Origin: Methanobrevibacter sp.
GTDB lineage: Archaea > Methanobacteriota > Methanobacteria > Methanobacteriales > Methanobacteriaceae
Reading direction: 5' to 3'
DNA: 51,786 bases
Assembly: GCF_017447225.1 (NCBI RefSeq)
Contig: NZ_JAFSNZ010000081.1
Span: 1-51,786, forward strand
Shown here: positions 5,378 to 32,454 of the stretch, piece by piece
How the letters are laid out: every line of letters begins with the position of its first letter
How positions within the stretch are numbered: the first letter of the stretch is position 1
Made by a program: the position numbers and the translations under genes
Notes under the pieces: model-generated
Told to the model about the DNA's origin: nothing
The model's input: only the letters and a program-made list of their open reading frames with translations
The model's database searches: none

Positions 5378-5989
5378 ATGAAATCTGGTATTATTTTATG
5401 TGGAGGGCAGAGCAGAAGAATGGGTCGGGATAAAGGATCTTTAATTATTAAAGACAAGCCCATGATTAAATACATACTTTCCACATTGAATAATGAAATA
5501 GATGAAGCGATAATTGTTTTAAATGATAGCGAAAGGATTGATAGATATAAAAAATTTATTAATCCTGACGACTATTCATATGACGTGAAATTTGTTGAAG
5601 ACAAAATCAAAAACAAAGGCCCTATTTCAGGCATTTTAACCGGCCTTGAAAACATATCATCACAACATGCAATTGTATTTCCATGCGACAGCCCAAACAT
5701 GACAAAAGGCACTATACAGACTCTTTTTAATGAAATAAGTGATGAATATCAGGCAATTGTACCATACCATGACCCGAAAAATAAACTAAAAACATCCGAA
5801 CCTCTGCATTCAATATACGATAAGAGCATTATTCCATTAATCAATGAACTGATTTTAAATGATTCCCTGCACATCAAAGGAATAATAGAAAAAATAGAAA
5901 CAAAATTTGTTTTAATAGACAATAAAAAAATATTAAAAAAAGAATTTGAAAATCTTAATCGTCCAGAAGACCTAAAGATATTCGATTAA
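5378..5989 (+). CDS. mobA: Molybdenum cofactor guanylyltransferase-like protein (MobA)
   Basis: 203 residues. The nucleotidyltransferase signature is clear: GG at residues 9-10, then SRRMGRDKG (residues 12-20). The metal-binding aspartate is Asp104 in FPCDSPNM. MobA adds GMP to molybdopterin; methanogens need the dinucleotide cofactor for formylmethanofuran and formate dehydrogenases. The last 18 bp overlap the 3' end of rrp42 on the opposite strand, so the two transcripts converge without a spacer. Related nucleotidyltransferases (for example CofC-like) are less likely given the SRRMGRDK signature. Confidence 0.9.
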   Translation: MKSGIILCGGQSRRMGRDKGSLIIKDKPMIKYILSTLNNEIDEAIIVLNDSERIDRYKKFINPDDYSYDVKFVEDKIKNKGPISGILTGLENISSQHAIVFPCDSPNMTKGTIQTLFNEISDEYQAIVPYHDPKNKLKTSEPLHSIYDKSIIPLINELILNDSLHIKGIIEKIETKFVLIDNKKILKKEFENLNRPEDLKIFD

Positions 5990-6757
5990 TTCTTTTGTTT
6001 TTGAAATTGCGGTATTTACAGCAGAGAATATATCATCTTTAGTTAACGGATGAGCTCCACCTTTTTGCATAGCACAAATTCTACCTTCTTTAGTAACTCC
6101 AACATTTAAACGTGCACTTGCAACACGTTCTTCAGATAAAGTTGGGTCTAAAACCATTTTATCACCTATTTTAACGAAAGTGCACATAGCCACTTCATTG
6201 TTAATAGGTAAATCAAAGGTATTTTCCTTATCGATTACAACTTCATCATCAACGATAGTTGCGGTTGGTATTTTTGTGCTTTTGAGTGCTGCCATTACAG
6301 CAAGCTCTGCAGTGTCAAAGAGATTACCGCAGTTGTCGATTACATGCAAGTCAATGAATAACATCCATACATGTTTACCTTCTTCAACACAGAGTTTATC
6401 CAATTCAACCAATTCACTTTCACGGATTCCTCTATCAACTACACGTGCAAGTTCAATAGAGTCATCACCAGGTGGTCCTGGTTCAAAAGTAGGATCAGCC
6501 ATTGGCAACATTTCACAATTGGTCATTAATACTCCAAGATCCGGGGTGTCCGGGAATGGACTACCTAATTGAGGTTTAACACCAACAATAACTTGGGTTC
6601 CACCGATTTTTACTCTTGCAGAACCTTCAGCTTTAGAAATAACATTAGTTTCAATGGAAATATCCCTGTATTCATCAAGGGCTCTTCCATCTTCTCTTTT
6701 ATCATTAAAAATAAGGTTTGTAATACTTTCTCTTGTAATTTCTGGTACTATATCCAT
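5972..6757 (-). CDS. rrp42: Exosome core subunit Rrp42 (RNase PH-like, non-catalytic)
   Basis: 261 residues from the ATG at 6757. The open frame extends to a GTG at 6766, but GGTG placed 6 nt before the internal ATG favours the shorter form. It has the RNase PH fold: an N-terminal EDGRALDEYR segment, then VIVGVKPQLG, and a C-terminal RICAMQKGGAHPL. In the archaeal exosome Rrp42 pairs with catalytic Rrp41 to form the hexameric ring that degrades RNA 3' to 5'. It follows rrp41 by 9 nt and is the last gene of the block, converging on mobA. Confidence 0.95.
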   Translation of the reverse strand: MDIVPEITRESITNLIFNDKREDGRALDEYRDISIETNVISKAEGSARVKIGGTQVIVGVKPQLGSPFPDTPDLGVLMTNCEMLPMADPTFEPGPPGDDSIELARVVDRGIRESELVELDKLCVEEGKHVWMLFIDLHVIDNCGNLFDTAELAVMAALKSTKIPTATIVDDEVVIDKENTFDLPINNEVAMCTFVKIGDKMVLDPTLSEERVASARLNVGVTKEGRICAMQKGGAHPLTKDDIFSAVNTAISKTKELIEYL

Positions 6758-22416: not shown

Positions 22417-22488
22417 AGGCAAGTAAGGGATTTGAACCCCTGTTTCATGGTCTGCAGCCACGCACCTAAGCCACTCGGTTAACTTGCC
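22417..22488 (-). tRNA. tRNA-Cys (GCA)
   Basis: 72 nt on the minus strand. The acceptor stem GGCAAGT/ACTTGCC is perfect, and the discriminator is T (U73), as required for cysteine. The anticodon loop is CTGCAGA with anticodon GCA on a 5-bp stem with one G-U pair. The T arm carries GGGTTCAAATCCC. No CCA is encoded and no intron is visible. A TATA-like tttatata lies at 22529-22536. The gene directly precedes cysS, and no promoter-sized gap lies between them (34 nt). Confidence 0.96.
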
Positions 22489-26839: not shown

Positions 26840-26866
26840 AAAAAAAAGTGTATGAAAAAATCATAC
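26840..26866 (-). terminator. Intrinsic terminator of the adhesin-like gene
   Basis: GTATGA (26850-26855) and TCATAC (26861-26866) form a 6-bp stem with a 5-nt loop, overlapping the stop codon of the adhesin-like gene. On the minus strand a run of T (26840-26847) follows. Confidence 0.6.
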
Positions 26867-28561
26867 AATAGAAAATTTGAAAGGATGAAATCCATTTGCA
26901 AAAAATGGAATTTCAACAGTTGAAACAGCATTGTTACAAACAATACTGAATGAATAATTATTAAAATCGAAATTAAATTCCATAATTGACGTTTTCAATG
27001 AAACTGAATGATAATTGAAATCAATGAAAAAATTGAAAAATGAATTTTCAATATTTGCACAATTATCCCCAACATCAAAATTAACCAGATATGGCATTTC
27101 ACAGACATCTGCAAAATCCATGCTTTGATTTAAGGAATATGAATTAATAGAAATGACATTTTCAAAATCATTGAAATTTAAAGTATCCTTCACGAACAGA
27201 TTCAAATCATTCACTGAAAAATTGAAAGATAACGCCTTCAAATCAATTAGCTCAGCAAATAAGCTAGTTTTCCCGTAACATAGGATAAATTGATAATTTC
27301 CATCACAATCCAGTTGAATATTATAATCAATTATGTTGAGCTTGAAATCATCATTCAGACCCGACGACCGCATATTAAATTTTGACTTATTCATCGAAAT
27401 ATCCATTAGAAACTTGAAGAAATCATTAATCTGGCCCGGAATAAATTTATCCAGTGAAAAGAAATTATAAACTTCTTTTAAGATGTTGACTTCAATTATT
27501 TCAAAATGCACATAACTGCCAATAGTTTTAAGGCAATTATCTATCAGAATGAATGAATGTTCGCCGAAAATGCTGCCGGTGAAATAGTCATGAATTATTT
27601 CATTCTGTTTGTTTGAAATAGAGAATATAGCTTCACCATAATTGGCTTTATTTGAAATAAAATAAGAGTTTTTCACAACCAATGAAGCAGAAATTCCAGT
27701 GAATATGGCACCACCATAATCTGCAGAATTATATGCAAAATATGATGAATCAACTTCAAGCAAACCACTATTTTTATAAACGGCACCACCAGCATATGTT
27801 GCTGAGTTATTTATTGCAACAACATTAGTCAAATATGAAATAGAGCCATTATCATAAATAGCACCACCATATGATGCTTTTGAATCCTTGAATAGTGAAT
27901 AAGAAACGTTTAACTTGGAACAATTTGAATATACTGAACCACCTAATTCAATAGCTGTGTTATTATAGAAGTTTGTATTATGAATAATTACCTTGGATGC
28001 ACTAGCGACATAAACCGCACCACCAGCATAAGTTGCATGATTATTAATGAAAGTGGAATTATCTATATCTGTAAGTGAAGCATAATTTCCAACATTAACT
28101 GCACCACCATAATCTCCGAAATTATTCTCGAAAATAGAATTAAAGGCATACAGCTTAGCATTATTCTTTATTGACAGATTATTTAATGTCAAAGAGGATA
28201 TTGATAGAAATCCCTCAGACACTAAAGAATTGCCCAAACCATTAATAACAGTCATATTTTTTGATTGTCCAATAAGGGTAATGTTTTGAATAGTTATGGA
28301 TTGATCCAAATTATACTCACCATCGGCAAAATAAACTACAGAACCATCAACAAGTTTATCTGCAGATAAGAACTTATATGGTGAATTCTGAGTTCCATTA
28401 CCATCATTCAATGATGAAGCATCAAAATAAATGTTATTTGATATCTGATTATCAGCATCAACAGATTGTGAATCCAATGAAGTGACATTATCATTAGCAA
28501 AGCTAATTGGAATACAGAATAATATTAAAATTATTATTAGAAACATTATGTATTTTTTCAA
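26861..28561 (-). CDS. Adhesin-like secreted protein with Pmp-type beta-helix
   Basis: 566 residues. A signal peptide covers about residues 1-22 (MKKYIMFLIIILILFCIPISFA). From about 45 to 310 a right-handed beta-helix is built from short repeats of the polymorphic-membrane-protein type: GGAVNVGN, YAGGAVYVAS, YGGAIYDN, YAGGAVYKN and YGGAIFTG. The remaining about 250 residues hold no Gly-Gly repeats, are rich in Phe/Asn/Asp and have no membrane anchor; I do not recognise this domain. Such proteins are a large family of Methanobrevibacter surface or secreted proteins. The ATG follows ggaggt. The gene ends in a terminator hairpin. Confidence 0.85.
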   Translation of the reverse strand: MKKYIMFLIIILILFCIPISFANDNVTSLDSQSVDADNQISNNIYFDASSLNDGNGTQNSPYKFLSADKLVDGSVVYFADGEYNLDQSITIQNITLIGQSKNMTVINGLGNSLVSEGFLSISSLTLNNLSIKNNAKLYAFNSIFENNFGDYGGAVNVGNYASLTDIDNSTFINNHATYAGGAVYVASASKVIIHNTNFYNNTAIELGGSVYSNCSKLNVSYSLFKDSKASYGGAIYDNGSISYLTNVVAINNSATYAGGAVYKNSGLLEVDSSYFAYNSADYGGAIFTGISASLVVKNSYFISNKANYGEAIFSISNKQNEIIHDYFTGSIFGEHSFILIDNCLKTIGSYVHFEIIEVNILKEVYNFFSLDKFIPGQINDFFKFLMDISMNKSKFNMRSSGLNDDFKLNIIDYNIQLDCDGNYQFILCYGKTSLFAELIDLKALSFNFSVNDLNLFVKDTLNFNDFENVISINSYSLNQSMDFADVCEMPYLVNFDVGDNCANIENSFFNFFIDFNYHSVSLKTSIMEFNFDFNNYSFSIVCNNAVSTVEIPFFANGFHPFKFSIV

Positions 28562-28658: not shown

Positions 28659-29222
28659 ATGAAAGAAATTGAAAAACTAAGAGCCGGACTTGAATACTGT
28701 TTTGATGATGAGGAAGTAGCTGATTTGAAACTTAATGCAGTCAAAAACTGTCAGATATACAATAATATTGATGAAACAGACAGACAAGCAAAATACAATT
28801 TTTTAAAAGAAATGCTTGGAAGCATTGGTGAAAATTCAGGAATTGAAAGAGGATTTAACTGCGACAATGGAAAAAACATCTTTATCGGAAACAATTTCGT
28901 TGCAAACTACAATGTGACAATCTTAGATGTCAAGGAAGTATATATCGGAAATGACGTGATGATCGGACCTGGCACGACAATAACCACAGTAGGCCATCCG
29001 ATCAATCCGAACGGAAGAAGAAAAAGACTTGCACAGGCAAGTGAAATTAAAATTGGAAATGACGTCTGGATTGGTGCAAATGTTTCAGTGCTGCCTGGTG
29101 TGACCATCGGAAATAATGTTATAATAGGTGCCGGAGCAGTCGTTAATCGGGACATACCGGACAATTCAATGGCCGTTGGCGTGCCTGCAAAGGTAATTAA
29201 AGAGATTGAAAAACCCATATAA
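28659..29222 (+). CDS. Maltose/galactoside O-acetyltransferase-like hexapeptide transferase
   Basis: 187 residues, the LacA/Maa length. A helical N-terminal cap ends with NCDNGKNIFIGNNFVANYN. A left-handed beta-helix follows with VYIGNDVMIGPGTTITTVGHPIN (catalytic His in VGHPIN), IKIGNDVWIGANVSVLPGVTIGNNVIIGAGAVV and a final GVPAKVIKEI. It transfers acetyl from acetyl-CoA to a sugar hydroxyl, but the sugar is not determined. It is transcribed divergently from the adhesin-like gene with a 97-bp shared promoter gap. Confidence 0.9.
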   Translation: MKEIEKLRAGLEYCFDDEEVADLKLNAVKNCQIYNNIDETDRQAKYNFLKEMLGSIGENSGIERGFNCDNGKNIFIGNNFVANYNVTILDVKEVYIGNDVMIGPGTTITTVGHPINPNGRRKRLAQASEIKIGNDVWIGANVSVLPGVTIGNNVIIGAGAVVNRDIPDNSMAVGVPAKVIKEIEKPI

Positions 29223-29739
29223 ATACTTTTTGTTATGAGTGAGGACAATATTTATCAGTCAGAACAATATTTATCAGTGAGCTCAACAAGCTTTAAATAT
29301 GTAAATAATCATAAAAACTAATTGACATCTTAATTGATGTCAAAATATATACCAAAATTCAACATTTAAGTCTAATGGATAAACCATTAGATGAATAGGG
29401 TGAGATTATATTAATTAAAATAGGCTCATGTGAATCATTAACAACAACAAAGTGAAAGGTTTTCAAAAATGCTTTTCACTAACACATCACCACATACATT
29501 AAAATGTATGTTTAATCTCACCCTATAACTTGTTTTATTATAATACTTATTTAAACTTTTTTTACGTTTAAAAGCAATATTACAATGACTTTAGAAAAAA
29601 ATAACAACATTAGAATATTGTTTGAATCTAGAAAAAATAGCAATTAAAAATTATAAGTGGGATGAGAAATACAATAAATTCATAATTTAATGTTTATTTC
29701 AATTAGGAATTCAAAAAAAGAAAAACAATAAGAAGTAAC
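29223..29739. other. Gene-free 517-bp gap with direct repeats and folded element
   Basis: No protein gene is supported. From left to right: a 15-bp direct repeat ACAATATTTATCAGT at 29245-29259 and 29264-29278 (19-bp period), and an 8-bp hairpin TTGACATC/GATGTCAA at 29322-29343. A TATA-like aaaatatata follows at 29342-29351, then the structured element 29371-29526 and a T-rich stretch at 29558-29563. The valS terminator is at the right end. The stretch 29565-29710 is plain AT-rich DNA. Confidence 0.6.
29371..29526 (+). ncRNA. Candidate structured non-coding RNA
   Basis: The element is built from perfect inverted repeats. A leading hairpin TCTAATGG/CCATTAGA spans 29371-29391. A 14-bp closing stem pairs ATAGGGTGAGATTA (29395-29408) with TAATCTCACCCTAT (29513-29526). 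Inside lie hairpins AGTGAAAGG/CTTTTCACT (29451-29480, one G-U pair) and ACATACATT/AATGTATGT (29492-29511). A TATA-like box at 29342-29351 lies about 25 bp before the first hairpin, and a T7 run at about 29557-29563 follows the last. This fits a transcribed RNA on the plus strand, though the palindromes read equally well on the minus strand. I do not recognise a known family; it is not RNase P, SRP or 7S RNA by its visible motifs. Confidence 0.45.
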
Positions 29740-29755
29740 CTATCTGATTACTTCT
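29712..29755 (-). terminator. Intrinsic terminator overlapping the end of valS
   Basis: AGAAGTAA (29731-29738) and TTACTTCT (29748-29755) form an 8-bp stem around the valS stop codon, followed on the minus strand by T-rich sequence (29713-29725). Confidence 0.65.
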
Positions 29756-32454
29756 AAAATCATATCTAAGTTTTCAGATTGCAAGATATCTACTTTTTTA
29801 CCTGATGCTCCCACAATCTCTTTTTTAATATTCAACATATCTTCACTTACTACCAGTTCACCGATAGCCAGTTCATGATTTTCAGCCAATATTGAATCAA
29901 TTTCATCCAAAGGAGTTGATTTTAGATAACCTATGATTTTACCTGCGTCCCCTTTGAATTTAGGTCCGATTTGAGACATGTCAGGTTCCACTTCGATGAT
30001 TTTTTCGTGAACTTCCGGTTTTCCTGATTTGATAGCTAAATCTTTGATTTTTAAGGTACCTTCAATATCATCAGCAAAGTCTTCAAAGATGCTTATTAAC
30101 TCATCATCTGTGGTGTAGACATTAACTTCTGCAAGTTCAGCATTTAAAGGTATTTTAGAAGCGGATTTGAATCTTCTTACTTCATCTATTAAATCAATAG
30201 TAGTATCTCCTTTAGTTTCAAATTCTTCACTTATGAGTTTGCTGTTAACTTCAGGCCAGGAAGTGGTGTGTATTGATTCATCATCAAAGTACTGATAGAC
30301 TTCTTCTGTAAAGAACGGTGCGATTGGAGCCAATAGTTTAAGTGAAGTTTCCACAACAGTCCTTAAAGTATATTTGGCCGCACGTCTTGATTCATCACTG
30401 ACATCACTGTATAGTCTGTATTTTACTGCTTCAATATATTCGTCACAGAAATCGTGCCAGAAGAATCTTTCTATTGATGTGATTGTATCTGCGAAGTTAT
30501 ATTCTGCAAATGCGTTATCCACTTTAATGTTTAGGCTGTTTAATTTGGATAAAATCCATAAATCAAGAGGTCCCAAATTATCTTTAACTTCATCATATAA
30601 TACTTCCTCATCGAATATCTGCATGCTGATAAATCTGAATGCATTCCAGAATTTTCTTAGGAATCTGTATCCGTGCTTGATGTCTTTCCAGTCGAATATT
30701 ACATCAGATCCAGGAACGCTGTTTGCTGCCCAGGTTCTTAAGGAGTCAGCACCATATTTTTCAATTACCTCTTCAGGTCCGACTACAAACTCAGGTCTTG
30801 ATTTACTCATTTTGTTTCCGTCTTCACCGAATACCATACCATTGATTACGATATCATCGAATGGTTTTTTGCCAGTTAAAGCAAGACATCTGAGTGTTGT
30901 ATAAAATGCCCATGTACGGATAATGTCATGTCCCTGCGGACGGATATTTGATGGGAAATGATTGACGTAATCCTCATTTGGCCATCCTGCAATGGACAAC
31001 GGTGAAATTGATGAGTCCATCCAAGTGTCTAGGACATCTTCTTCAGGGATGAATTCTTCACATCCGCATTCGCAGGCATGTTTAGGTTTGTCTTGAGTTG
31101 GATCAATTGGTAAGTCTTCAACTTCAGGTAGAATTACAGCTCCGCAGTCTTTACAGTACCATACTGGGATTGGAGTTGCAAATATTCTTTGTCTTGAGAT
31201 ACACCAGTCCCATTCCATTGAATCTGCCCAGTTTATCATACGGGATTTCATGTGTTCAGGCACCCATTTCATTTCATCGGCTGCGACTTTGGTTTTTTCA
31301 ATCAAATCCCTTACAGCTACAAACCATTGTTTTTTAACGAGAATTTCAATAGGAGTTTTACATCTCCAGCACTGTCCGACATTTTGGTCTACCTGTTCCT
31401 GTTTTAACAGATATCCTTCACTGTCCAAGTCTTCTATGGTTTGTTTTTTACAGGTCTGCAAGTCCATTCCTTCATATCTTCCAGCAGCTGCAGTTAATGT
31501 TCCGGTTTCATCGATTGCATTGATGATTTCCAAGTCGTATTTTTGAACCCAGCTTACGTCAGTTTTATCCCCAAATGTACAAATCATTACTGCACCTGTA
31601 CCAAATTCAGGATCTACTTCTTCATCTGCAATGATTTTTACTTTCTGATGTGATAACGGTACTTCAACATATTTTCCTAAAAGGTGAGTGTATCTTTCAT
31701 CTTCAGGGTGAATTACAACAGCAACACATGCAGACATCAATTCAGGACGGGTGGTTGCAATAAGGATACCTTCATCTGAAGGGTCAGCCTGTTTTCCTGA
31801 TGCCTGTGATGATACTATATCTTCATATGAATCTTCAACTGCAGGAGGGAAGTTGACATAGTTCAAAAATGTTGTGTTATCCGAATATTCAACTTCTGCA
31901 AAAGCAATAGCTGTCTCACAACGAGGACACCAGTTTACCGGGTGAATTCCCTGATAAATCAATCCTTCTTCATACATTTTTAAGAATGAATACTGGGTCT
32001 TTTTCATGTATTCAGGAGTCATTGTTACGAATTCACGACTCCAATCCTGTGAATAACCCATTGCCTGCATCTGAGCTTTCATTTTAGCAATGTTATCAGT
32101 AGTTAAATCAACACAATATTCTCTGAATTTTGCACGTGAAACATCATTTTTCTTGATTCCGTGAGTTTCTTCAACCTTTACTTCAGTTGGAAGACCGTGG
32201 CAGTCCCATCCCTGGGTGAACAATACATCATTGCCTTTCAGTCTTCTGTATCTTGCGTTCATATCAATGTAAACCCAATTCAATACGTGACCCAAGTGAA
32301 TTGAGCCTGTTGGGTATGGAGGGGGAGTATCGATTACATATCTGGGACGAGAGCCATCTCCAAGGTATTTGTAGATTTCTTCATCTTCCCATTTCTTCTC
32401 CCAAACCTTTTCTTTTTTGAAATCATAGTCTTTAGGAATTTCTTGGTTTGACAT
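29740..32454 (-). CDS. valS: Valyl-tRNA synthetase
   Basis: 904 residues, class I synthetase. The signature [13 protein letters not shown] has HLGH at residues 53-56; NKMSKS lies near residue 550. The editing domain contains [15 protein letters not shown]. Zinc-binding CPRC, CWRC, CKDC and CECGCEE clusters are present, as expected for the archaeal/eukaryotic form. It charges tRNA-Val and edits mischarged threonine. It stands alone with its own terminator and a 142-bp upstream gap shared with the ABC exporter promoter. Confidence 0.97.

Follow-up and report, generated by a model that had tools for sequence, protein, structure and literature searches.

Methanosarcina mazei sRNA154 and sRNA41 are independently transcribed regulatory RNAs that act on mRNA stability or on ribosome-binding sites; both belong to a different genus from the element described here and are likened to it by description. 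The sRNA162 of the same species is intergenic, has a native promoter and terminator, and combines several conserved stem-loops with a single-stranded linker that masks a ribosome-binding site, and its homologs are confined to close relatives (PMC3510493). Literature searches returned no small RNA for Methanobrevibacter. Here, we describe an element in a 51,786-nucleotide contig of a Methanobrevibacter species (NZ_JAFSNZ010000081.1, called the window below) that is likely, judging from its comparison with related genomes, to be an independent plus-strand non-coding RNA gene with its own TATA promoter, our best guess at its function being a trans-acting regulatory sRNA. The element resembles sRNA162 in its intergenic position, in having an independent promoter (by sequence only in the present case), in its stem-loops and single-stranded linker, and in having homologs in close relatives. 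By contrast, the linker is the most variable part of sRNA162 but is among the most conserved parts of the element, which also has a long closing stem around a multi-branched domain that sRNA162 lacks. The likeness would be one of way of working and not of ancestry. We rate the RNA as a new family of a kind already described, intergenic methanogen sRNAs being what comes closest to it.

The element is housed in a gap (29223-29739) between two convergent genes, as a preliminary description of this DNA had stated, the flanking genes being an acetyltransferase gene on the plus strand and valS on the minus strand (Table 1). By its valS, whose homologs were compared in named records, the window belongs with Methanobrevibacter from the guts of ruminants and other hosts and is close to M. 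millerae. The neighbor of the acetyltransferase gene (26861-28561, minus strand) encodes an adhesin-like protein in which Pfam shows weak repeats of the polymorphic-membrane-protein type (Chlam_PMP). The preliminary reading of the element as an RNA is well supported by what genome comparison establishes, namely one copy per genome, a fixed position, pairing kept through covariation, a strand preference, and a conserved promoter, and the element is probably a regulatory small RNA rather than a mobile element.

Table 1. Features of the proposed RNA gene and its surroundings in the window, and GGAG elements at loci of other species.
Feature	Position	Strand	Observation
O-acetyltransferase gene (maltose/hexapeptide type, sugar)	28659-29222	+	Pfam Mac and Hexapep
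Leftward TATA element ATATAAATAC	29217-29226	-	Overlaps acetyltransferase stop codon; weak match to the promoter of the opposite-strand candidate RNA seen in other species
Three tandem 19-bp repeats, unit around ACAATWTTTATCAGTSAG	29233-29289		Conserved in relatives; proposed regulator/activator sites
Core promoter CAACAAGCTTTAAATA	29284-29299	+	TATA box 29292-29299; conserved in homologs
Proposed RNA gene	29320 to 29528-29563	+	Structured body to 29526; ends predicted from promoter, structure, and T run
Hairpin P0 (UUGACAUC/GAUGUCAA)	29322-29343	+	Perfect, 8 bp; 4/8 pairs changed on both sides
Unpaired linker containing ACCAAAAUUCAACA	29344-29369	+	Conserved; AAAUUCARC in 11/11 homologs
Hairpin P1 (UCUAAUGG/CCAUUAGA)	29370-29392	+	4/9 pairs changed on both sides; 8 G.U versus 2 A.C cells
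Closing stem P2, 5' arm ATAGGGTGAGATTA	29395-29408	+	8/14 P2 pairs changed on both sides
Core CAUGUGAAUCAUUAA	29427-29441	+	Invariant or near-invariant across nine closer homologs
P3, AUGUG with CACAU	29428-29432 with 29483-29487	+	4/5 pairs changed on both sides (L135, L110)
Hairpin P5 (AGUGAAAGGU/GCUUUUCACU)	29451-29480	+	25 G.U versus 1 A.C cells
Conserved ACAUCACCA	29484-29492	+	ACAUCA in 11/11 homologs, AUCAC in 10/11, AUCACC in 8/11
Hairpin P4 (ACAUACAU/AUGUAUGU)	29492-29511	+	Missing or altered in several homologs, and hence peripheral
Closing stem P2, 3' arm TAATCTCACCCTAT	29513-29526	+	
T7 run	29557-29563	+	Candidate archaeal terminator
valS	29740-32454	-	
GGAG elements	L111:5631-5751, L118:6161-6279, L119:4334-4431, L120:4323-4413, L122:3077-3200		
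GGAG elements	L123:4329-4442, L125:5602-5721, L129:4919-5038, L116:5653-5772 and 5895-6016		
GGAG elements	L112:3821-3921, L134:5608-5704, L153:2386-2480, L154:854-966		

The perfect 14-bp closing stem noted at the outset is P2, which pairs in the RNA as AUAGGGUGAGAUUA/UAAUCUCACCCUAU; its arms are separated by 104 nt and not by the 106 nt first given. Two internal hairpins had been described as well, and both are present as P5 and P4, as is the left-hand hairpin, seen at 29371-29391 and here called P1. Hairpin P0, which is kept in relatives, had been missed. Plus-strand folding of 29360-29540 gave -48.8 kcal/mol (z -6.7), a value equaled by none of 200 shuffles. The minus strand folded at -46.7 kcal/mol (z -4.8), and the extended segment 29320-29565 at -59.0 kcal/mol (z -7.5).

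Several comparative results bear on this fold and on the nature of the element. First, in a covariance alignment of 11 sequences, 93.4% of cells were paired (32-46% when partners were slid by 1-3 columns as a control) and 26 of 54 pairs had changed on both sides, a number reached by none of 500 shuffles; because this alignment was fitted to the structure, the pair counts are inflated, with the P2 and P1 arms depending little on the fit. The bare sequences tell the same story independently of the alignment: P2 has been remade with other bases in two divergent species, at loci L071 (UAGGCGAGAUAUUA/UAAUAUCUCGCCUA) and L110 (AAGGUGGGAUAC/GUAUCUCACCUU), P0 has been remade in L110 (UAGCA-CCA/UGG-A-UGCUA), and P5 reads AUGAGG/CUUCAU in L071. 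Compensatory changes in the stems, which the preliminary description had named as support for an RNA, are therefore present.

Second, the non-Watson-Crick cells of the helices, read on the plus strand, comprised 42 G.U and 6 A.C combinations, a tally in which the P5 count leans on the fitted alignment and the P1 count (8 versus 2) hardly does. These 42 G.U cells would be mismatches on the other strand, which argues that selection acts on the plus-strand transcript. We had considered a minus-strand RNA whose promoter would lie on the right-hand side (TTTAAAT, ~25 nt beyond P2 in several species) because elements of other species, discussed below, lie on that strand, but the G.U/A.C asymmetry ruled it out.

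Third, within the genus the element occurs in a limited set of genomes and at a constant position. A DNA search of 67 Methanobrevibacter genomes yielded eight close homologs, to which the left flank, used as a query, added a ninth, in G052. A covariance model derived from the pair of sequences most alike recovered exactly these ten genomes of the 67 (own genome included), with one match in each and E values from 1.2e-51 to 1.1e-10. A second covariance model added L110 (34 bits, E 8e-6), its remaining matches being near chance; L110 scored 47.9 bits (E 2.2e-13) against a sequence profile whose alignment includes L110. The element is thereby known from 10 other species of the genus. Its own genome (2.16 Mb) holds a single copy, and wherever a contig carries both neighbors the element lies between the acetyltransferase gene and valS, some contigs stopping short of the former. 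One copy per genome and conserved flanking genes argue against the tiny non-autonomous mobile element, expected in many copies, that had been offered as the alternative. A MITE-like element of ~130 bp could present the 14-bp stem as perfect terminal inverted repeats, but conservation of the flanks extends past the stem, compensatory changes have accumulated inside it, its position is shared among related species, and the similar-looking hairpins of other species are confined to the same neighborhood at 1-2 per genome, all of which makes a mobile origin extremely improbable.

Fourth, conservation continues leftward to ~29217, through the three 19-bp tandem repeats and then CTCAACAAGCTTTAAATA. 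The promoter and the repeats were both absent from the preliminary description, both are kept in relatives, and L110, the most divergent homolog, has the core promoter at an equal distance. At the spacing between promoter and start that is normal in archaea, transcription would begin near 29320, at the base of P0, and we therefore extended the RNA leftward to include this hairpin; the left boundary first given (29371) was too short. The TATA-like box reported 25 bp before that boundary does exist (TATATA, 29346-29351), but the promoter at 29284-29299 is the better and more conserved one. As a promoter, the TATA at 29346 was rejected, being weaker and less TATA-like than the box at 29292-29299 and leaving P0 outside the RNA. 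The DNA after P2 is T-rich and contains the T run mentioned earlier, and a candidate 3' end falls within 29528-29563. With these predicted ends, the RNA transcribed from its own promoter would be about 210-245 nt long. The sole Rfam match within the window is a tRNA gene (22417-22488, minus strand), whose TATA box TTTATATA, ~40 bp ahead, can serve as a promoter yardstick.

The promoter also bears on whether the structure might instead be the 3' end or terminator of the acetyltransferase (or valS) mRNA, with no separate gene. Its location downstream of both convergent genes, and its stems followed by T-rich DNA, would suit such a role. However, the acetyltransferase stop codon precedes P0 by 100 nt, the conserved promoter and operator array intervene, P0, the linker, and P1 are conserved as well, and a terminator needs less than a 200 nt multi-branched structure. 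As for valS, the DNA that directly follows this gene on the minus strand (29699-29739) is itself T-rich, which makes it unlikely that the element serves as the valS 3' untranslated region, and the strand of valS is also disfavored by the G.U asymmetry. We regard a cis-acting role as unlikely in either case.

In Rfam 15, no family fitted the proposed RNA gene at gathering or relaxed thresholds. Reading the sequence for a box C/D or H/ACA guide RNA revealed no C/D boxes and no ACA with a kink-turn, and snoRNA families of Rfam gave weak, chance-level scores of 22 and 18 bits (cut-offs 60-65) that fell outside the folded part. Archaeal RNase P RNA (RF00373) and SRP RNA (RF01857) resemble the element in being stable and structured, in their length, and in having promoters of their own; both were rejected as identities, as each lies elsewhere in the genome and the element is matched by neither model. 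In the element, no reading frame for a protein is conserved, the short frames being broken by indels in several homologs. Translation of one of them, ATGTCAAAATATATACCAAAATTCAACATT (MSKYIPKFNI, 10 codons, 29337-29369), might explain conservation of the linker, and MS(N/K/D)(H/Y)I.KF(N/S)I is readable in most homologs. Nevertheless, the frame is interrupted in L005 and L135, ends after 3 codons in L110, ranges from 10 to 27 codons in length, begins within the stem of P0 with no Shine-Dalgarno sequence ahead, and accounts for none of P1-P5, and we consider this explanation very unlikely.

In the mechanism that we propose, the TATA promoter, beneath the three-unit operator array, would drive an RNA that folds into P0, the single-stranded linker, P1, and then the P2-closed domain holding P3, P5, and P4. 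The stems would act as a stabilizing scaffold. Two stretches that are conserved and unpaired, one being AAAUUCAAC in the linker and the other ACAUCACC within P2, would base-pair with target mRNAs, the ribosome-binding site being the most likely place, and would lower translation once the operator array turns the promoter on. Pairing with mRNA is a tentative proposal. All 11 sequences retain two unpaired motifs, one in the linker and one in the P2 domain (AAAUUCARC and ACAUCA, respectively). The ACAUCAC segment resembles the 16S anti-Shine-Dalgarno sequence, and ACAUCACCA is the putative mRNA-pairing segment. In the complete genome of a relative (G004), ATGATTCACATG, a 12-mer complement of the core, occurs only twice outside the RNA gene, both times at gene starts, one belonging to a gene for a PAN-like ATPase and the other to a MazG-like gene. 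For the third predicted target, an HD-domain gene, no complementary site was present in the window species, where this one of the three predicted sites was checked. Duplex energies of the linker and ACAUCACC segments were no better than those of shuffled controls, that of the core CAUGUGAAUCAUUAA beat its controls only slightly, and the two most divergent homologs do not preserve this core.

Such weak target predictions would fit an RNA that acts by binding protein rather than mRNA, as a scaffold, sponge, or RNP component (6S-like or protein-titrating). The long near-perfect closing stem, the highly conserved unpaired segments, and an architecture that is kept while inner lengths vary point the same way, but no familiar protein-binding motif was recognized (kink-turn and C/D boxes by reading; Rfam). 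We consider protein binding about as probable as pairing with mRNA, each being conceivable but less likely than not.

Other Methanobrevibacter species carry, in the same acetyltransferase/valS/aroA neighborhood, an element of 91-124 nt on the valS strand whose closing stem is GGAGAUGAGA/UCUCAUCUCC. This GGAG element is present once per genome, with two side by side in one genome (G039), and is preceded by a conserved TATA promoter, GTAAATATTGT-N-AAAAGTATATATAC, ~24 nt ahead on the valS strand. Wobbles in its closing stem are few but agree with that strand (2 G.U, 0 A.C), and we consider it a candidate second structured RNA. Like the window RNA, the GGAG element has a long closing stem and its own TATA promoter with a ACAATATTTAC-type upstream site; unlike it, the GGAG element lies on the other strand, has a different inner structure, and lacks P0 and P1. 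Covariance and profile searches detected no homology between the two. The best match of the GGAG promoter profile in the window (nhmmer; 29254-29208, minus strand) was weak (E 0.53) and lies at the acetyltransferase stop codon.

The promoter string of the window RNA is found again, across many genomes of the genus, ahead of a gene that encodes a ~52-residue protein beside an aldo-keto reductase; in its own genome, it stands upstream of a flavodoxin-like gene. The protein family concerned (~46-63 residues, MPYDYYDYFLKQRNN...) adjoins the aldo-keto reductase gene and has the CAACAAGCTTTAAATA promoter ahead in the loci seen (L073, L076, L078, L080-L084, L086-L091; G004:1582968). A repeat with 19-bp spacing, ACAATWTTTATNAGTNAG, often in tandem, stands upstream of the TATA boxes of varied genes of the genus (window 29233-29289; L042-L054; L074-L091), including those for the 52-residue protein, a flavodoxin-like protein, and a trpE-like protein; at G004 548586, an array of it lies downstream of an integrase. 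This repeat is possibly the binding site of a regulator, and the array above the window promoter would regulate the RNA. The palindrome GACATC-N6-GATGTC was also tried as a regulon operator and rejected, with one mismatch-free occurrence in the genome and looser matches near control level; in relatives, it behaves as a hairpin, which is P0.

We offer the following combined picture as a speculative one, improbable in all its parts together: a new family limited to the Methanobrevibacter millerae group, in which the anti-Shine-Dalgarno-like segment would control the translation start of conserved genes (e.g., the proteasome ATPase) and the operator array, common to other structured RNAs and tiny proteins, would serve as the switch, the neighborhood being a fast-evolving site of regulatory RNAs with a different, opposite-strand RNA in sister species. 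Hardly any small RNAs have been described for the methanogens that dominate gut and rumen. Strains of the M. millerae group are cultivable, and an RNA gene that has comparative support, and for which promoter, strand, and invariant segments are specified, offers a direct test case. The common promoter/operator motif also ties this RNA to further unstudied transcripts, namely the second RNA candidate and the ~52-residue protein family.
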